Shown here: piece after piece, positions 3,289-18,069 of the stretch
Numbering within the stretch: the first letter of the stretch is position 1
How the letters are laid out: the number at the start of each line of letters is the position of its first letter
Source: a virus
IMG/VR virus record: IMGVR_UViG_3300020156_000053
Location: 1-41,585 of that record
DNA: 41,585 nucleotides
Direction: 5' to 3' (one strand)
Notes under the pieces: model-generated
What the model was told of the DNA's origin: nothing
Databases searched by the model: none
Seen by the model: the letters and a program-made list of their open reading frames with translations, nothing else
Program-made: the position numbers and the translations under genes

Positions 3289-3644
3289 AGCGGGTACCAG
3301 CGGTACAGCGTCCCGGCGAACGGCAGGCCGTGCGTCTCGCGGAACCAGGCGACGAGGTCGGGCCAGCTCGCGAAGCCGTCGGCACGCGCGAAGGCGTGTC
3401 GGTCGACCTCGGTGCCGTTGACGACGACGATCAGGTCGTCGAGCTCGACATGGTCGGTCCCGGCGATGCGCCCGCGCGCGAGCTCGACCTGCGGGCTGCG
3501 GTAGGCGGCGCCGGACCAGCGGCGCAGGCTGACGACCTCACCGATGCCGGGCACGCCCCGCTTGCGCGGCGGCCGCAGCGTCTGCCGCTTCGCGCCGCTG
3601 GCGACGAGGTCGGCGAAGCGCGGCTTGAACATGAGGACGATCAT
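3285..3644 (-). CDS. ASCH-domain protein, 119 aa
   Basis: The ATG at 3642-3644 lies about 7 nt after GGAGGCG. The start MIVLMFKPRFADLVASGAKR and the following TLRPPRKR, then GEVVSL and the C-terminal DGF..WPDLVAWF, match the ASCH (PUA-like) fold at its usual length. Family members bind RNA or nucleotides and some hydrolyse N4-acetylcytidine. A phage copy could edit or read modified nucleotides or RNA. The assignment is by pattern recognition, and catalytic activity is not established. Confidence 0.7.
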   Translation of the reverse strand: MIVLMFKPRFADLVASGAKRQTLRPPRKRGVPGIGEVVSLRRWSGAAYRSPQVELARGRIAGTDHVELDDLIVVVNGTEVDRHAFARADGFASWPDLVAWFRETHGLPFAGTLYRWYPL

Positions 3645-4231
3645 GCCGTCGCCTCCGTCCACCGCGCCCGCGCGGCCGCGACGACCTCAGGCCCGGCGAG
3701 CCGCTGCAGCAGGCCGAGGACGTCGACCGGGAGCGCGCGGTCGATGCGCGCCCACTCCTGGGCGGCGACGTAGGCCGGCAGCCACGCGGCGAGCATCCGG
3801 TCGGCGGGCCGCAGGAGCCGCGTCGCCATGTGCAGGTGGCGGGCGATCGCCGGCGCGTCGCGCAGCTTGAGGGCGACGACCAGGTGCGTCCGGTACGACC
3901 GGGCCATCCGGTCCTCGGGCTCCGGCACCTGGGCGAGGACGGACCAGCGAGGGATGCGGCCAGAGCCCGGCGCCTCGCTCGGCCAGTGCGGCCGGCCGTC
4001 GATGATGAGCGCGCCGATGCGGTGGCCGGCGCGCAGCAGGGCGACGACGCGGGCGACCTCGGCGACGACCGCGGGCGAGAAGACCCGGTAGCCGTTGGGC
4101 AGGCGCATCGGCTGCGGCCAGCCATAGCGCACCTCCCAGGCATGCAGCGTGTGCCGGCCGATGCCGAGCCGCTTCGCGACGTCGTGCACCAGGAGGTCGG
4201 TCGGGAACAGCGATCGCGGGCCTGGGCTCAT
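3641..4231 (-). CDS. MerR-type DNA-binding protein with C-terminal helical bundle, 196 aa
   Basis: The ATG at 4229-4231 overlaps the upstream stop. Residues 15-75 form a MerR winged helix-turn-helix: VHDVAKRLGIGRHTLHAWE, then RLPNGYRVFSPAVV and a helix ending in GHRIGALI. After a linker, residues of about 110-185 form an all-helical region (ALKLRDAPAIARHLHMATRL, then WLPAYVAAQEWARIDRAL). It is similar in spacing to the four-helix bundle that precedes the cobalamin-binding domain in CarH/MlrA-type regulators. No B12-binding Rossmann domain follows. It is probably a phage transcription regulator. The bundle's ligand, if any, is unknown. Confidence 0.6.
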   Translation of the reverse strand: MSPGPRSLFPTDLLVHDVAKRLGIGRHTLHAWEVRYGWPQPMRLPNGYRVFSPAVVAEVARVVALLRAGHRIGALIIDGRPHWPSEAPGSGRIPRWSVLAQVPEPEDRMARSYRTHLVVALKLRDAPAIARHLHMATRLLRPADRMLAAWLPAYVAAQEWARIDRALPVDVLGLLQRLAGPEVVAAARARWTEATA

Positions 4232-4485
4232 CCGAGCCTCGCGAGCTCGGCGTTGACGCGGCGCAGCTCGGCGGCAGTCGCCTCGCGCAGCGGGCGCATG
4301 GCGGCCCGGGCCTTGCGCTCGCCCAGGGCCCGAGCGTCCAGGCTCAGGTCCGCGACTCGGCACCGGAACACCCGGCCGACGTCGCCGGCGAGGTCGTCGG
4401 CCAGCTCGAGCGCGCGGTCGCGCAGCGGGCGGAGCTGGTCGCGGATGGCGGCGGCGCGGCGCCACCGGCGGCTGGGGCGGGTCAT
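4228..4485 (-). CDS. Basic helical protein, 85 aa
   Basis: The ATG at 4483-4485 begins two bases after the previous stop. The product is almost entirely helical and Arg/Ala/Leu-rich (ALELADDLAGDVGRVF, KARAAMRPLREATAAELRR). No family is recognised. It lies between the winged-helix gene and the MerR gene with the usual overlap at its end, so it is supported by operon structure. Confidence 0.5.
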   Translation of the reverse strand: MTRPSRRWRRAAAIRDQLRPLRDRALELADDLAGDVGRVFRCRVADLSLDARALGERKARAAMRPLREATAAELRRVNAELARLG

Positions 4486-4487
4486 GG

Positions 4488-4883
4488 TCAGGCGGCTCCT
4501 GCGCTGGCGCGCGCGGCGGTGGGCATGGCGGGGACGTAGCGGCCGTAGCCGCGGCTCGAGCGACGGGCGAAGCCGGCAGCGACGAGGCGCCGGAGGGTCG
4601 CCCATGCCTGCTTCGACGTCGGATGGCCCAGCGCGCGGCTCAGCTCCATCGGCGTCAGGGATTGGCGCAGGCGCAGGAGCGCGAGGGCGCGGACCATCCC
4701 GCGGCACCGGAGGTCGCCGGTCATCTCGGCGACGTCGGCGGCCTCGTTGATCCCGGCGTCGATGGCGCGGGCGATCGCGCGGTCGAGCGGCTCGACCCCC
4801 TGCTCCGCCCGGCGGATCGCCTGGCGGGCGAGCTCGAGGTGGCGCGGTGCGGCGCCGCGGTGGGTCCGGTTCGGTTGGCTCAC
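4488..4883 (-). CDS. Winged-helix DNA-binding protein, 131 aa
   Basis: The GTG at 4881-4883 overlaps the upstream stop. Residues 75-115 read LTPMELSRALGHPTSKQAWA, followed by LRRLVAAGFARRSSRGYGRY, a MarR/GntR-like winged helix with a basic wing. The N-terminal half is a helical Arg-rich region (ELARQAIRRAEQGVEPLDRA). It lies just downstream of the replication-initiator-like gene, so it may act in replication (helicase loading) or regulation. The sequence does not decide. Confidence 0.55.
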   Translation of the reverse strand: MSQPNRTHRGAAPRHLELARQAIRRAEQGVEPLDRAIARAIDAGINEAADVAEMTGDLRCRGMVRALALLRLRQSLTPMELSRALGHPTSKQAWATLRRLVAAGFARRSSRGYGRYVPAMPTAARASAGAA

Positions 4884-5212
4884 GACTCGGCCTCCGGCTC
4901 GAAGAACGACCGCTGCGTCGGCTCAGGGCGCGCGGGCGCGGGCTGCAAGACCACGGCCGGCCGCAGCGGCGGCAGCTCGCGATCGCGCACCGCGGGCCAG
5001 CCGGCCCGGACCTCGGTGAGATCGTCGGCGAGCACCCGGCCCTCGGTGATGATCGTGGTCCGCATGCGCTCGACGGCGACGCACCAGGTCGGGCTCGCGT
5101 AGGCCAGGCGCCGCGGGTCCTCGCGGTCGATCATGCGCAGCAGGCACTCGCCCTGCTCGCGGTACGCGCCGCGCTCGCGGGCGGCGCGGTCGTCGAGGTC
5201 GGGCTGGCTCAT
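4880..5212 (-). CDS. Hypothetical protein, 110 aa
   Basis: The ATG at 5210-5212 overlaps the upstream stop and gives MSQPDLDDRAARERGAYREQ. It is acidic to neutral, with a helical middle and a Pro-rich tail ending RSFFEPEAES. There is no recognised domain. The position directly after the replication gene is where phages often place helicase loaders or partners, but no motif supports that here. Confidence 0.5.
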   Translation of the reverse strand: MSQPDLDDRAARERGAYREQGECLLRMIDREDPRRLAYASPTWCVAVERMRTTIITEGRVLADDLTEVRAGWPAVRDRELPPLRPAVVLQPAPARPEPTQRSFFEPEAES

Positions 5213-6201
5213 GCCGCCCCCTCGGCGGCCGCGCCGCGGTGGTTCTCGACCCATGCGTCGACCAGGGGCGCGAGGTGCGACGGGAGCCGCGCGGGCTGGT
5301 TCGCCTTCCGGCGGACGCCCACGGCGAAGCGCAGGAACCGGCGCGCCTCGTCGGCGCTGCGGCACTGGGCCTGGTGCTGGAACAGACCTACCCACCCCGC
5401 CCGGTACTTCTCGCCGGAGTGGAGCCCGAACTCCTCCACCAGCGCGCCGACGTCGATCCTCCCCCCGGGCGCGGCCCGTGAGGCCGGCGCCCCGGCGGCG
5501 GCGGTGGCGGTCCTACGGTCGGGAGCTCGGCCGCCGCCACCTCCGCCACCCGCGGTCGCGCCTTGAGGGCGCGCCGCGTGAGCGGCCGCCTCTACATGGA
5601 TGGATGGATGGTTGGATGGAGGGCAGCCCGAAACGCTGCCGGCGGCACCATTGTTGGCTGCCGCCGGCACTGCCGCCGGCACGTCTTCGGGCTGCCGCCG
5701 GCACTCCGCGCCTTCTGGAGCCTGCGCGTCCGTGTTCACTTTCTTGCCGGCGGCACCGTTCTTGGATGCCGGCGGCAGGTCCGGATCGTGCCGCCGGCAA
5801 TCGCGATCGCCCTGAGAGGAGTTGCCGGCGGCAGGGTTCTCGGGTGCCGGCGGCACATCGCCTTGCCGGCGGCGATGGGCCTCGACGGCGCGCTGGCGGT
5901 TCCGCTCGGACACTTCGTGGTAGTGCAACTCGCCGTCGAGGTCGTATCCGACGAGCGCGAGGTCGTCGCCGTCCCAGGTGCCCAGCTCGGACTTGATGAG
6001 GTGGTCGACGTCCGCGCGCATGCAGTCGGTGCGCGAGAACCACTGGCGGTCGTTCCAAAGCTTGCACCCGACGATGCGGCCGCGGTTCTCCTGGTCGGCG
6101 CAGTACATGTGCAGCGTCAGCCAGCAGCCGCGCGCAGCCATGTCGGCGTCCTTGAAGACGACGCTGCGGGTGAAGCGGCTCTGGATCTTCGCGTACTGCA
6201 T
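5209..6201 (-). CDS. Replication-initiator-like protein with embedded iterons, 330 aa
   Basis: The ATG at 6199-6201 overlaps the HNH gene's stop (TGATG). The protein has three parts. Residues 1-105 form a conserved-looking domain (MQYAKIQSRFTRSVVF, MYCADQENRGRIVG, WFSRTDCMRADVDHLIKSEL) with the flavour of the N-terminal winged-helix region of phage replication proteins. Residues of about 110-245 are a low-complexity Ala/Gly/Pro linker. Residues 250-330 form a C-terminal helical domain (LVEEFGLHSGEKYRAGWVGL) reminiscent of DnaD/replisome-organiser tails. The linker DNA carries ten copies of an 11-bp element, as in lambda O, where the origin lies inside the initiator gene. The function is inferred from this layout, and no family match is proven. 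Confidence 0.55.
   Translation of the reverse strand: MQYAKIQSRFTRSVVFKDADMAARGCWLTLHMYCADQENRGRIVGCKLWNDRQWFSRTDCMRADVDHLIKSELGTWDGDDLALVGYDLDGELHYHEVSERNRQRAVEAHRRRQGDVPPAPENPAAGNSSQGDRDCRRHDPDLPPASKNGAAGKKVNTDAQAPEGAECRRQPEDVPAAVPAAANNGAAGSVSGCPPSNHPSIHVEAAAHAARPQGATAGGGGGGGRAPDRRTATAAAGAPASRAAPGGRIDVGALVEEFGLHSGEKYRAGWVGLFQHQAQCRSADEARRFLRFAVGVRRKANQPARLPSHLAPLVDAWVENHRGAAAEGAA
5597..5620. repeat. TGGA tetranucleotide tract
   Basis: A short run of TGGA/TGGT units (TGGATGGATGGATGG and continuation) lies just left of the iteron array within the same gene, encoding SNHPSIH on the minus strand. It is one of the less GC-rich patches in the area. It could be simple slippage, or part of an origin unwinding region, which is not shown. 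Confidence 0.6.
5637..5874. repeat. Iteron array, candidate replication origin
   Basis: The 11-mer TGCCGGCGGCA, or its reverse complement TGCCGCCGGCA, occurs nine times exactly. The starts are at 5637, 5659, 5671, 5693, 5745, 5767, 5789, 5823 and 5845. A tenth copy at 5864 differs by one base. Start-to-start distances are 22, 12, 22, 52, 22, 22, 34, 22 and 19 bp, mostly close to whole helical turns. The copies fall in all three reading phases of the overlapping gene, encoding CRR, PAA, AAG or PPA, so the DNA word and not the peptide is what is repeated. A TGGA-rich tract at 5597-5620 adjoins the array. Confidence 0.75.
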
Positions 6202-6977
6202 CAGTCCCCCGCCTTCTCGGACGACGGCCCGACGTCGGCGATCATGTTCTCGATCAGGTCGCGGACGTCGCGCCAGTTCCTGAACGCCGCGCGGTGCTTC
6301 GAGACGTGGCGATACACGTGGTCCGCCGGCACCCCCTGCCGCACCAGCTCAACGAGCAGGTCCCTGGCGATGTACCTCGCGTTGCTCCATGGGAGGAAGC
6401 AGCCGATGCGATTGATCGCGCGGTGCGCCTCCGCCGCCTCCGGGTCCTCGCGCTCCATCTTCCGGACGCGGCAGATGCCGCTGATCTTCGAGTAGGCGGT
6501 CTCGGCCGGGTACTGGTCGTAGGCGATCGCGACGGCGGCGATCACCTCCTGCACCCCGAACTTCCGGACGAGGTTGCGCATCTCGCGCTTCCCCTGGTCC
6601 GTCAGGGTCCTGCCGGCGATGCGATCGAAGGCGTCATTGATGGCCTCGGTCTCGACGTCCATCCGCGAGAGCTCGACCTGCCAGTCGGCCATCATCCGCA
6701 CCTGGTTCCGCCGCTCTTCGATCATGTCCGCCTGGTTCCTGGCGAGCACGACGGCGGAGTCGTCGGCGATGGCGCGGTCGCTCTTCCCGCTGTTGCAGGT
6801 CCAGCACGACGTCGCGAGGTTCATGAGGTCATCGGTTCCGCCATCGGCCACCGGCTTGATGTGGTCGACGTTGAGGACGACGTCGGGCGCCTTCCCGCCG
6901 CAGTACTGGCAGGTGAAGCGATCGCGCTTGAAGACCTCGAAGCGGATCGTGTTCGACAACTTCCGACGTTCGGTCAT
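6201..6977 (-). CDS. HNH endonuclease-domain protein, 258 aa
   Basis: The ATG at 6975-6977 starts MTERRKLSNTIRFEVFKRDR. The HNH core spans residues 12-64: C23-x2-C26 (FTCQYCG), DH at 38-39 (NVDHIKP), GG..DLMNL with N53, and a second pair C58/C61 (CWTCNSGK). This is a complete zinc-stabilised HNH nuclease. The remaining 190 residues are helical. They include GVQEVIAAVAIAYDQYP and a C-terminal segment, so the protein is longer than a bare HNH. It sits directly upstream of the replication gene. It may process DNA during replication or packaging, or be a free-standing homing-type nuclease. The context does not decide. Confidence 0.75.
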   Translation of the reverse strand: MTERRKLSNTIRFEVFKRDRFTCQYCGGKAPDVVLNVDHIKPVADGGTDDLMNLATSCWTCNSGKSDRAIADDSAVVLARNQADMIEERRNQVRMMADWQVELSRMDVETEAINDAFDRIAGRTLTDQGKREMRNLVRKFGVQEVIAAVAIAYDQYPAETAYSKISGICRVRKMEREDPEAAEAHRAINRIGCFLPWSNARYIARDLLVELVRQGVPADHVYRHVSKHRAAFRNWRDVRDLIENMIADVGPSSEKAGD

Positions 6978-8664: not shown

Positions 8665-9048
8665 TCAGTGCTCGCCGGGCGCGGCGGGCGTGGTGGGATC
8701 CGCGGGGGCGATGTCGGCGGAGTGGCGGCGCGGCGAACGCAGCCGCTTCCATTCGCGGTGGTACTGCCGGCGATCGACGAGGATCAGCCCCGTCGGCCGC
8801 CAGGGCCGCGCCAGGCCGTGCGCCCGGCGCCACTTCGTCACGCTGTTCGGCACGACGCCGGCGGACTCGGCGATGCGGCGGCACGAATCGCCGGCGTTGT
8901 GCATCTCCATCGCCTCCGCATGCGTCAGCCGGCCCAGCATGCCGCGGGCGCGACTGCCGGCCTTGAGCTGCGAACGGTGGCAGGAGCGGCGGGTGGTGGC
9001 GGCGTCGTCCCGCGCGAGGACGGCGAGTTCGTGCTGGGTGAAGGTCAC
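8665..9048 (-). CDS. Helix-turn-helix protein, 127 aa
   Basis: The GTG at 9046-9048 overlaps the methyltransferase stop as GTGA. Residues 40-75 read LTHAEAMEMHNAGDSCRRIA then ESAGVVPNSVTKWRRAHGL, a homeodomain-like or resolvase-type HTH. It is followed by a basic tail (YHREWKRLRSPRRHS). It is a likely DNA-binding regulator or a terminase-small-subunit-like protein, but its place in the early operon favours regulation or replication. The assignment beyond HTH is not secure. Confidence 0.55.
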   Translation of the reverse strand: MTFTQHELAVLARDDAATTRRSCHRSQLKAGSRARGMLGRLTHAEAMEMHNAGDSCRRIAESAGVVPNSVTKWRRAHGLARPWRPTGLILVDRRQYHREWKRLRSPRRHSADIAPADPTTPAAPGEH

Positions 9049-11336
9049 GGCGCGGCCTCGCCGACGGCCATGTCGAAGAGCGACGTCTGGCCGCGGTCGA
9101 TCGCCTCGGCCGTGCGCAGGTTGTCGCAGGCCGAACGCCAGTAGGACTCCTTGAGCTCGACGCCGACGAACCGCCGACGCAGGCGGACCGCCTCGTAGCC
9201 CTCAGAGCCGATGCCGGCGAACGGTGACAGGACGAGGTCGCCGGGGTTGGACCAGAGCTTGATCGCGCGCTCGATGACGCCGAGCTGGAGCGGGCAGAGG
9301 TGGCGCTCGTCGTCGGTCTCGCGCGCCTGGCGCACGTTGAGCACGTCGGTCTCGGCGATGCCGTCGCCGTTCGGCGCCCAGTCCTCGGCATACCACACCG
9401 GCCGCGCCCACCGGATCCATTCCTCCTGGCTGATCCAGCCGTCGGCGTTGTCGTACTTCTCGCTGATACCGGCGCGGATCGGCTCGCCGGAATCGCCGTC
9501 CTTACGGAACTGCAGCAGGTAGTCGGCCATCGCCATGTGCATGTGCGACGAGTCGGTCGCGAGCGTCTTGAAGAGCAGGCCGCGATCCTTCGTCCGGATC
9601 GCCTTCACCTGCGGGTTCTTGTCGATGCAGACCTCGCCGTAGTAGCGCCAGCCGGCCCTCTCCATCGTCGCGATGACGGCGCCGCGGAAGTCGCGCATGC
9701 CGATGAAGCCGTCGGTCGTCTTGTGCGCGGCGTACTGCGTCAGATGGACGCAGCAGTGCCGTCCCGGCTTGGTGACGCGCAGCAGCTCCGGGACGAGGAA
9801 CCGGTAGTGCGCGATCATCTCCTCGAGCGACGTCGTGTTGCCGATGTCGTGCGGGCTGTTCGTGTAGGTGTACATGCCCGGGAACGGCGGCGAGAAGACC
9901 GTCAGGCCGACGCTCGCGTCCGCGACGTGGCGAAGCTGCTTCACGCAGTCGCCGAGGTACATAGTCCAGGCGTCACCCGACGCGACCGCCTCGGCGTACG
10001 GCATCTCCTGGCGCACCGCGCTCTCGCTGAGCGAGACCTCGCCGGCCATCTCGCGAACGATGTTGTCCATCATCTCCCTCGCCTGTTGTTCCTTGCGGTT
10101 GATGTTCTCGACGACCACGCCCTCGGCGGTCGATGTGATGACGTGCGCGGTGACGGGCCGCTTCTGCCCGAAGCGCCAGCACCGGCGGACGGCCTGGTAG
10201 AACTGCTCGAACGAGTCCGAGAGCCCGACGAAGACGACGTTGGCGCAGTGCTGCCAGTTCATCCCCATGCCGCAGATCGACGGCTTGGAGACCAGGACGC
10301 GGACGGTGCCGGCCGAGAAGGCCAGCATCCGCGACTCCTTCGCCTCGTTCGAGTCCGTGCCCGTGACCTCGACCGCGCCTGGGATCGCCGCGACGAGCGC
10401 CTCCGACTCGCTGTTGAGGTCGCACCAGACGAGCCACGGCTCCGACGACGAGTTGACCAGCGCGGCCGCCGCGGCGACGCGGTCCGGCAGGCTGTTGCGG
10501 CGCGCCGCTCGCCGCTCATCCAGCGTCAGGGACTCCGGGTTGTCCGAGAGGAGCGACTGCTGCCCGATGCGCTCCCCGGCGGCGACGACGACCTGGCGAA
10601 CGTCGAGCGGAGGCAGGAGGAACGCCCCATCCTCGTAGCCGAGGTCCGACGGCTTGCGCAGCGCGACGGCCCACGACGCGAGCCAGCGGTAGAACGGCCG
10701 CTTGGCGTGGCCCTTGAGGCGCCACTGCGACGTGGAGTTGCCGTCCTGCGTGAAGAAGAGCGCCTTGACCTCCTTCTGCTGCATGACGCCGAGGAACTCG
10801 GCGTGATTGCAGAGCTCGGTCAGGTCGTTCGGCGCCGGCGTCGCGGTGCAGGCGAGGCGGTACGGGACGTGTTCGCCGAAGTCGAGGATCGCGGCCTTCG
10901 TCTTGCCGTCGTACGCCTTGAGGATCGATGACTCGTCCAGGACGAGGCCGGCGAACTCGCCCGGCGAGAAGTGGTGCAGGCGCTCGTAGTTGGCGATGTT
11001 GATGCCAGGGCGGCAGTCGGCCGCGGTGCGACAGACCGTGACCTCGACGCCGAACTTCACCCCCTCGGCGCGCGTCTGCTCGGCGACGGCGAGCGGCGCC
11101 AGGATGAGCACGTCGCCGCCGGTGGTATCGCGGACGAGGCGCGCCCATTCGAGCTGCATCGCCGTCTTGCCCATGCCGGTGTCGGCGAAGATCGCCGCCT
11201 TCCCGCGCCGGCACGCCCACCGGACGATGTCGCGCTGGAAGGGGAACAGGGCGGGGTTGATCCAGGCCGGGTCGCAGGTGAAGCCCGAGGGCTCCGAGGC
11301 GATGCGCTTGGAGGCGAGGAAGGTCTCGTAGCTCAC
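9045..11336 (-). CDS. SNF2/SF2-type helicase fused to DNA methyltransferase, 763 aa
   Basis: The GTG at 11334-11336 has GGAGGTG just upstream and overlaps the rusA-like stop, so I reject the longer frame. The helicase half has Walker A ADTGMGKT (51-58), motif II LDES (133-136), motif III TAT (164-166) and motif VI QAVRRCWRFGQ (381-391), all typical of SNF2-like translocases. The methyltransferase half has SPPF (482-485, the SPPY-type catalytic motif of N4-cytosine/N6-adenine enzymes) and, near 705, the SAM-binding motif SPFAGIGSEG, in the beta-class order. One polypeptide thus joins an ATPase to a DNA methylase. Related fusions occur in phages and in restriction-like systems. No nuclease domain is seen here, so protection of phage DNA is more likely than restriction. 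Confidence 0.85.
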   Translation of the reverse strand: MSYETFLASKRIASEPSGFTCDPAWINPALFPFQRDIVRWACRRGKAAIFADTGMGKTAMQLEWARLVRDTTGGDVLILAPLAVAEQTRAEGVKFGVEVTVCRTAADCRPGINIANYERLHHFSPGEFAGLVLDESSILKAYDGKTKAAILDFGEHVPYRLACTATPAPNDLTELCNHAEFLGVMQQKEVKALFFTQDGNSTSQWRLKGHAKRPFYRWLASWAVALRKPSDLGYEDGAFLLPPLDVRQVVVAAGERIGQQSLLSDNPESLTLDERRAARRNSLPDRVAAAAALVNSSSEPWLVWCDLNSESEALVAAIPGAVEVTGTDSNEAKESRMLAFSAGTVRVLVSKPSICGMGMNWQHCANVVFVGLSDSFEQFYQAVRRCWRFGQKRPVTAHVITSTAEGVVVENINRKEQQAREMMDNIVREMAGEVSLSESAVRQEMPYAEAVASGDAWTMYLGDCVKQLRHVADASVGLTVFSPPFPGMYTYTNSPHDIGNTTSLEEMIAHYRFLVPELLRVTKPGRHCCVHLTQYAAHKTTDGFIGMRDFRGAVIATMERAGWRYYGEVCIDKNPQVKAIRTKDRGLLFKTLATDSSHMHMAMADYLLQFRKDGDSGEPIRAGISEKYDNADGWISQEEWIRWARPVWYAEDWAPNGDGIAETDVLNVRQARETDDERHLCPLQLGVIERAIKLWSNPGDLVLSPFAGIGSEGYEAVRLRRRFVGVELKESYWRSACDNLRTAEAIDRGQTSLFDMAVGEAAP

Positions 11337-11698
11337 GCCGGCACCTCCTGGAGATGGATCCTGGTGCACCTGAGCGCCTTGGGCGCGCGCTGCTGGACGT
11401 ACTCGCACGTCCACCAGCGCGGCGAATCGTCCACGATGTAGCCGAGGCGCTTGAGGCAGTCTGGGATCGGCTTCGCGCCGCCGACGAAGTTGCCGTAGTC
11501 GATGATCCTGTTGCGCAGGCTGAGGATCGTGGCGCGCACCGGTCGCGTCGGCGGGTGGGGCCGAGGACGGAGGTGCACACGCAGCATGAGGAGCCAGGCA
11601 TCGCGCTCGCGCGTGTACGCCAGCCAGTGCGAGTACTGGAAGCGATTTTGCGACGGGACCTCCCGCGCGATCACGACGGTGATGGGTTCGCCGATCAC
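11333..11698 (-). CDS. RusA-like Holliday junction resolvase, 121 aa
   Basis: The GTG at 11696-11698 follows a G-rich site and overlaps the stop of the homing endonuclease gene. The sequence has the RusA layout: an N-terminal strand (ITVVIAREVPSQNRF), then IIDYGNF with D67 and N70, PDCLKRLGYIVDD with D80, D90 and D91, and a basic end. In RusA these acidic residues bind the metal that cleaves four-way junctions. The first Asp pair of the classical RDxDN motif is partly replaced (RIIDYGN). The length is close to that of E. coli RusA. The role is resolution of recombination or replication intermediates before packaging. Its 5' end is duplicated upstream (12216-12263). Confidence 0.75.
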   Translation of the reverse strand: MIGEPITVVIAREVPSQNRFQYSHWLAYTRERDAWLLMLRVHLRPRPHPPTRPVRATILSLRNRIIDYGNFVGGAKPIPDCLKRLGYIVDDSPRWWTCEYVQQRAPKALRCTRIHLQEVPA

Positions 11699-16956: not shown

Positions 16957-18069
16957 ATGGCCTACGTCGAGCCGACCCGCGGCGGGTTCAAGGTGCGCTG
17001 GCGTGAGGGCGGCCGCGGCTCGCGGCTCCTGACGTCGCGCGTCTTTACCAGCCGGGACGCCGCCGACGACTACGCGCTGCGGGTCGCTGAACGCCTGGCG
17101 GCGCGCAGCCGCCTCGGATCGATCGCGCCGCGGCTCGGCCTGGGCGAGGTGCTCGAGCGGTGGCTGCGGTCCCGCCTGGCCGAGCGGCGGGTGACGCCGG
17201 CGGGCGGCGCCGAGATCGTGCGGCTCCTGCGCCACCTCGCGCGCGCGCGCGGCTGGACGTCGACCGGCGACATCACCCCGGCCGAGGTCGACCGCTGGCG
17301 GGGCGACAACGGCGGCCGGAACGCCCGGGTCGGGGCGTACCTCCGGGCCGTCCTGCGGTGGGCCGGGGAGCGGATCGGCCAGGACGTCGACCCGGCGGCG
17401 CTCGTCGCCCTGCGTCCACCCAAGGCGGCGCGGCGGCCGCGCCCTGACCTGCCGGCGGCGCAGCTCGTCGCGACGTGGCGGCGGCAGGCGGCCCGGCAGT
17501 CGCCGCACGCCGAGGCCCTCGTGCACTGTCTCGCGAGCTACGGCTGGCGGCCGGTGACGGCGGCGCGGATGCGCGTCGCCGACGTCGACCTCGCGCGCGG
17601 GACCGTCCGCCTGCGCGGGCTCAAGGGGACCGGCGACGACCTGGTGCATCCCCTGCTCCCCGAGACGGTGCGCCTGCTGCGCGCGCTGTGCGCCGGCCGG
17701 CGCGGCGACGACGCGCTCTTCCTCGACCCGCGCACGGGCCGCGCGTTCCAGGAGCGGGCTCGGCATCGCGGTTCGATCACGGGCTGGTGGCGCGCGACGA
17801 TCGACAGCGGCGTCGGCCGCGGCGTCTACCAGGTGAAGCGCCTGGCCATCTCCAACCTGCTCGCGCTCGGCATCGCGCCGCAGGACGTCGCGCTCTTCAC
17901 CGGCCACCGCACGCTGTCGCAGGTGCTGACGTACGCCCGCACGAACGAGGAACGCGCGCGCGAGGCGCTCCGGACCATGGGTGCACGGAGGGTGCACGCC
18001 GCCGGCTCTGGCCGGGCCAAGCCGCGCCGTCGGAGCGCGAAGCCACGGGAAATGCGCGGCACCGCGTAA
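16957..18069 (+). CDS. int: Tyrosine-recombinase integrase, 370 aa
   Basis: The ATG at 16957 follows GGTGAG. It has an arm-binding-type N-terminus (GGFKVRWREGGRGSR), a core-binding SAM-like domain (about 60-150) and a catalytic domain (about 165-345). The catalytic residues are R198 (GWRPVTAARM), K223 (LKGTG), R295 (YQVKRLAI), H317 (FTGHRT) and the nucleophile Y326 (LTYAR). The His of the usual HxxR box is replaced by Gln292. The 25-residue C-terminus is basic. The gene ends 30 bp before the tRNA-derived core, as expected for an integrase acting on attP. Its 3' end carries one pair of the arm-type repeats. Confidence 0.9.
   Translation: MAYVEPTRGGFKVRWREGGRGSRLLTSRVFTSRDAADDYALRVAERLAARSRLGSIAPRLGLGEVLERWLRSRLAERRVTPAGGAEIVRLLRHLARARGWTSTGDITPAEVDRWRGDNGGRNARVGAYLRAVLRWAGERIGQDVDPAALVALRPPKAARRPRPDLPAAQLVATWRRQAARQSPHAEALVHCLASYGWRPVTAARMRVADVDLARGTVRLRGLKGTGDDLVHPLLPETVRLLRALCAGRRGDDALFLDPRTGRAFQERARHRGSITGWWRATIDSGVGRGVYQVKRLAISNLLALGIAPQDVALFTGHRTLSQVLTYARTNEERAREALRTMGARRVHAAGSGRAKPRRRSAKPREMRGTA
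17979..18000 (+). repeat. Integrase arm-type repeat pair, left of attP core
   Basis: Two direct copies of GGGTGCACG start at 17979 and 17990, an 11-bp period (about one helical turn). The same pair with the same period occurs on the other side of the core at 18200. This pair lies inside the 3' end of the integrase gene, 98 bp from the core. Confidence 0.6.

Follow-up and report, generated by a model that had tools for sequence, protein, structure and literature searches.

Gene neighbourhood of the iteron-bearing gene

The window (the whole 41,585-base virus record analysed here) carries on its minus strand a predicted replication-initiator gene of 330 aa (P0001; 5209–6201), composed of an N-terminal domain, a low-complexity linker with iterons, and a C-terminal region. 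Residues ~1–87 (5941–6201, minus strand) were predicted with AlphaFold2 to form a winged-helix DNA-binding domain, and the iterons follow this domain within the linker, at nt 329–565 of the ORF. Directly upstream lies an HNH endonuclease gene (6201–6977, minus strand; PF01844, E = 2e-14; phrog_16986, E = 8e-49), the stop of which overlaps the initiator start, while the next gene downstream (110 aa; 4880–5212, minus strand) has a start overlapping the initiator stop. These are followed by a small gene with a weak TrmB/MarR-like match (4488–4883, minus strand), a rival candidate for binding the iterons, and by a gene for a predicted MerR-like HTH protein (3641–4465). The order of HNH gene and then initiator recurs in phages D14C, Louie, P27 and Vibrio D65, and in Pseudomonas, Escherichia and Vibrio phages the gene after HNH carries a replication or replication-initiation annotation.

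Neither DnaB nor a recognisable helicase loader was found among the window genes scanned, and the record may be a fragment; the C-terminal region of P0001 may therefore contact host DnaB, or else the record may be incomplete. Elsewhere in the window, a 789-aa SNF2-like ORF (9045–11414), here a helicase-methyltransferase fusion, has a counterpart in the related locus L105 (2635–5004), where it immediately precedes the initiator; the ORF belongs to the early region in both phages. An integrase-like gene on the plus strand (16957–18069) points to a probably temperate lifestyle.

A divergent member of an initiator family

P0001 had no match in Pfam and only weak ones among PHROGs, namely phrog_1882 and phrog_3926 ('replication initiation protein', E = 0.052). 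Searches with P0001 alone returned no relatives. Its first 120 residues were linked to Akkermansia phages by tblastn, and the Akkermansia phage homologs succeeded as seeds, an alignment started from them detecting 67 viral and 5 genomic loci; in a 388-genome sample of the phylum to which the Opitutaceae locus belongs, 15 genomes had matches. A family profile built without the window protein recovered P0001 at E = 1e-21, with no other window frame below E = 1. The protein forms a long branch with 25–40% identity to its relatives and retains the conserved N-domain positions R24, W27, QEN37–39, G41, W49, R52, W54, L73 and L81. The profile match places P0001, as a divergent member, in an initiator family that has no name in Pfam. 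The family appears otherwise uncharacterised and belongs mostly to Verrucomicrobia and their phages.

The genomic context of the relatives points to replication. In two Akkermansia phages the homolog sits directly upstream of an annotated DnaB; judged from translations, DnaB-like ORFs lie directly downstream of L045 and L051, and DnaC/AAA+ loader-like ORFs directly downstream of L058, L078, L080, L082 and L113. Beyond this, flanking genes vary among the relatives examined. Ten records related to the window through the terminase had no detectable initiator of this family, most of these records being fragments. One relative (L145 28067–29077) is carried on a circular 32.8-kb Akkermansia muciniphila plasmid, pJ30893 (NZ_AP021899.1), alongside genes for a phage protease, DUF935 and an integrase. 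As the plasmid's initiator is a close match to that of phage DTMo-2021a, pJ30893 is probably a phage-plasmid.

Structure prediction for the whole protein from the single sequence gave an unusable model (pLDDT 40). With a 31-row alignment, AlphaFold2 modelled the N-domain at a mean pLDDT of 86, with helices and strands in winged-helix order. Replisome organizers (E 5e-4) and HTH proteins were among its best matches in a viral structure library. Against the PDB the first seven rows were plasmid initiator/Rep domains at E 0.03–0.07, which is not significant alone, and a second structure aligner placed plasmid initiator domains level with unrelated winged helices (Z 5.1–5.5); this fold of initiators is also common to many transcription factors. 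Together with the profile match and the DnaB- or DnaC-like neighbours of relatives, the winged-helix model supports the original prediction that the host gene is replication-initiator-like.

An array of palindromic iterons constrained at the DNA level

The linker contains ten sites of the form TGCCGSCGGCA on a lattice of ~11 bp (5637–5874, no strand assigned). Nine are exact (5637–5647, 5659–5669, 5671–5681, 5693–5703, 5745–5755, 5767–5777, 5789–5799, 5823–5833 and 5845–5855) and the tenth, TGCCGGCGGCG at 5864–5874, has one mismatch. A pattern count over the 41,585-base record thus bore out the array as predicted, nine exact copies and one near-exact, and the spacings of 22, 12, 22, 52, 22, 22, 34, 22 and 19 bp were also as claimed. 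All nine exact copies in the 41.6-kb record fall within 5637–5855, and the rest of the record has none outside the array. Allowing up to one mismatch, the 11-mer has 25 matches on both strands of the window versus 3.8 expected, the largest count in 100 shuffles being 9. A scan of viral contigs found no other viral record with two iterons 11 bp apart.

Each site, TGCCG-S-CGGCA, is an 11-bp odd-centred palindrome and its own reverse complement save for the central S. Copies in both orientations, as originally described, are real, but the orientation is nominal, differing by one base; direct and inverted labels mean little because the word is self-complementary except at its central base.

The repeat uses all three coding phases, as had been claimed, with the iterons split 3/4/3 on the coding strand and translating as CRR, PPA/PAA and AAG in the 330-aa ORF. 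Permutation of the synonymous codons of the gene yielded 0–3 copies in 5000 trials, versus the nine observed. With never more than three copies under permutation, the constraint on the array acts at the DNA level, in agreement with the proposal that the repeat is kept as DNA and not as peptide. These results also bear on a neutral source of the copies, by expansion of GC-rich low-complexity coding sequence (PPA, AAG, CRR) or of a mobile REP-like palindrome. The linker is GC-rich and of low complexity, and palindrome counts are raised in GC-rich ORFs even after shuffling; against such expansion, however, stand the use of all three reading phases, 11-mers that stay exact while the spacers vary in sequence and length, the maximum of three copies under permutation, and the confinement of exact copies to this part of the record. 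We grade neutral expansion as largely excluded, and its probability as very low.

Placement of the copies near one face of the helix held in part. The best period of the iterons is 10.85 bp (mean resultant 0.85; p = 0.0014, allowing for the scan across 10–11.5 bp), and pairs spaced 22 bp are about two helical turns apart, whereas iteron positions show no phasing at 10.5 bp (mean resultant 0.20, p = 0.66). The two resultants thus describe a lattice of ~11 bp and not strictly one face of B-DNA over 238 bp, and a one-face arrangement of all copies across this span depends on the twist assumed. The cumulative GC skew, also raised in the original prediction, has no switch at the array within the window. 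On pJ30893 the detrended maximum of GC skew lies ~0.6 kb from the initiator linker, although origins are not usually marked by the maximum.

A strand-asymmetric tract beside the array

On the C-terminal side of the gene, 13 bp past the last iteron, the plus strand carries a 28-bp C-less run, ATGGATGGATGGATGGTTGGATGGAGGG = (ATGG)4 TTGGATGGAGGG (5596–5623), which we consider a candidate unwinding element. No other C-less run in the record is as long, and the tract holds the least stable 25 bp of the ORF (top 0.09% of the window), while not being AT-rich, about half of it being G. Read on the coding strand it is G-less, a run that 6 of 100 synonymous shuffles also reached and that, taken alone, is therefore only suggestive.

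All 26 relatives examined have a C-less run of 27–62 nt on the coding strand, at ORF nt 371–542 and usually just after the array, which in each of the 26 is reached by no more than 7 of 100 shuffles. The run in the window occupies the corresponding place but is C-less on the non-coding strand, a bias opposite to that of all 26 relatives, and this reversal is the main departure of the window from the family.

Iterated sites are typical of partition loci. The array could accordingly be read as a centromere-like partition site that serves a plasmid-like prophage, a reading also favoured by the relative on a circular plasmid; it is opposed by the place of the sites inside an initiator gene and by the adjoining easily melted tract, which are features of an origin, and none of the window genes scanned was recognisably ParA/ParB-like. 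We regard a partition function as highly improbable.

Repeats in the linkers of related initiators

Repeats were analysed in 27 dereplicated members including the window (26 relatives), each compared with its own synonymous shuffles. Roughly half of the 26 relatives have significant DNA-level repeat arrays in the same linker, mostly at ~nt 306–509 of the ORF; in about half, the repeat count alone is not significant. Repeats of AACCCAAGC at 11-bp steps, with occasional steps of 12 and 34, occur in L055, L069, L098, L103 and L104, and 11-bp steps are also found in L135; as such steps are not a multiple of the codon, peptide repeats are excluded as their source. Other significant arrays consist of AAACCAACGT in L082, CGGAACCAAC in L137 and CAGGCAATGC in L128. 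Two kinds of repeat were not counted: those of L047 and L133, where it is the purine run itself that reaches significance, and those of the HNH-linked L005, L007, L016 and L017, where 12-bp steps may reflect peptide repeats.

The original prediction proposed a search for the same iterons in homologous genes and took their absence from close relatives as refuting. For the exact word the outcome comes close to this, as it appeared once, in L128, whereas position and steps of ~11 or 12 bp were recovered. The linker of this locus (Lentisphaerae bin) holds one exact TGCCGGCGGCA and four TGCGTCACGCA (TGCGTSACGCA form, four copies). A spaced pair of the L128 word was found in no other viral record, a weak test given that the spacing was not from L128's own array. 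The related form TGCTTSAAGCA occurs as a single copy each in L045, L047, L078 and L105 (8–10 kb per locus), located in the linker, and the TGCnnSnnGCA palindrome form or its half-site is kept in several lineages. The half-site AAGC reaches 3–10 copies per 105 bp of linker in 18 relatives versus ~1 elsewhere, an enrichment that spans the direct-repeat and palindromic groups, even though the binding domain differs little between members such as L098 and L105. Most simply, this can be read as a single recognition half-site in differing arrangements.

Several further repeats were observed at HNH-linked and other loci. The linker of D14C (L037) has GCACAACCA repeats spaced 22 bp, at 6067, 6089 and 6111; compared with D14C, phage vB_Pae_SG_WM_Sew_P27 (L042 4431–5513) has an HNH domain inserted in the initiator linker. 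CTGATTC repeats (peptide LIPDSL), in many cases with steps of 7 or 14 bp, recur in the linkers of HNH-linked initiators from different hosts (L037, L038 and L015). Long tandem arrays of 15-bp and 12-bp repeats in L017 (1946–2211) and L033 (3815–4029) are unexplained.

The comparison with relatives also bears on whether the sites are operators, through which the initiator or a neighbouring HTH protein (TrmB/MarR-like, 4488–4883; MerR-like, 3641–4465) would repress the early operon. Palindromes of 11 bp suit dimeric HTH regulators, and two predicted HTH proteins are encoded downstream; the sites, however, lie mid-gene, ~330–560 nt past the start codon, a single linker holds every exact copy present in the 41.6 kb, and among relatives the arrays keep to the initiator linker, with different flanking genes in the loci examined. 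We therefore judge an operator function unlikely.

A putative intragenic replication origin

With computed support from the array, its constraint at the DNA level, the family membership and winged-helix model of P0001, and the repeats and nearby asymmetric run in relatives, the array (5637–5874) is very probably the initiator-binding part of a putative phage replication origin, situated inside the gene of its predicted binder. The layout first proposed, with origin iterons in the initiator linker as in lambda O and a word different from that of lambda, is likewise supported by the 26 relatives.

By analogy with lambda O (PMC7466680) and SPP1 gp38 (PMC6316719), we propose a mechanism in which the N-terminal winged-helix domain would bind the 11-bp palindromes, probably as two CGGCA half-sites each, and the ten sites on their ~11-bp lattice would build a nucleoprotein complex. 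This complex may strain the DNA and open the adjacent strand-asymmetric tract (5596–5623), locally the weakest, after which the C-terminal region could bring in the host replicative helicase, directly or via an unrecognised loader. Initiator binding, tract opening, helicase recruitment and origin activity are all inferred.

A joint reading of window and relatives, which we regard as quite possible without favouring it, is that a widespread unnamed family (Akkermansia, Opitutaceae, Lentisphaerae and related phages) keeps its origin in the linker, with a half-site that is conserved and freely re-arranged and a tract set by strand asymmetry rather than AT content. If so, almost the same binding domains would serve 11-bp direct repeats and odd-centred palindromes at 12 or 22 bp, and reliance on strand asymmetry rather than AT content would permit the design in DNA of 71% GC. 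The locus offers a concrete putative pairing of origin and initiator in a very GC-rich phage and, via its relatives, in phages and a phage-like plasmid of Akkermansia; for the latter, a search of open papers turned up no described origin. A set of relatives that combines one predicted fold with many iteron words should be useful for studying how winged-helix initiators change DNA specificity and site arrangement. Genetic tools for Verrucomicrobia are few, and such origins could seed vectors for them.

Comparison with known systems

Intragenic iteron origins are already known as a kind; for this family, its iteron words and its GC-rich form, no description was found in the open literature, most subscription journals being outside the scope of the search. 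In lambda and Stx lambdoid phages, ori-lambda within O combines 4–6 imperfect 19-bp iterons with an AT-rich tract and is accompanied by the replication gene P, and additional iterons lengthen the initiator linker (PMC7466680). The likeness lies in the iterons, inverted repeats placed mid-gene in the initiator, and in the readily unwound tract that comes after them (PMC7466680). The window differs in having ten 11-bp sites, a tract of G, T and A that is C-less within 71% GC DNA, and no recognised DnaB or loader in a record that may be a fragment; nor does it match the O family, P0001 having neither an 'O-like' PHROG nor a Pfam O-type match.

RepA_N initiators (pSK41, pTZ2162 and PLE RepA) bind semi-palindromic iterons through their N-terminal domain (PMC7145576), and solved initiator N-domains of this type top the PDB fold list of our model, a weak likeness (E 0.03, Z 5.5). 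The PLE origin, in contrast, is non-coding and outside repA (PMC7145576), and the RepA_N Pfam profile (PF06970) matched none of 31 family members at E ≤ 0.1. At the same threshold, 22 of these 31 matched PHROG 3926, all weakly (best 5.6e-5), the window protein doing so at E = 0.052.

In SPP1, oriL consists of repeats within gene 38, which encodes its initiator gp38, with an adjacent unwinding element, and the pathway employs a helicase loader and a DnaB-like helicase (PMC6316719). SPP1 differs in its direct repeats, AT-rich element and second origin, oriR (PMC6316719), and the likeness considered here is one of layout. The window thus reads as a putative functional counterpart of lambda O/ori and SPP1 gp38/oriL that lies outside the O family.
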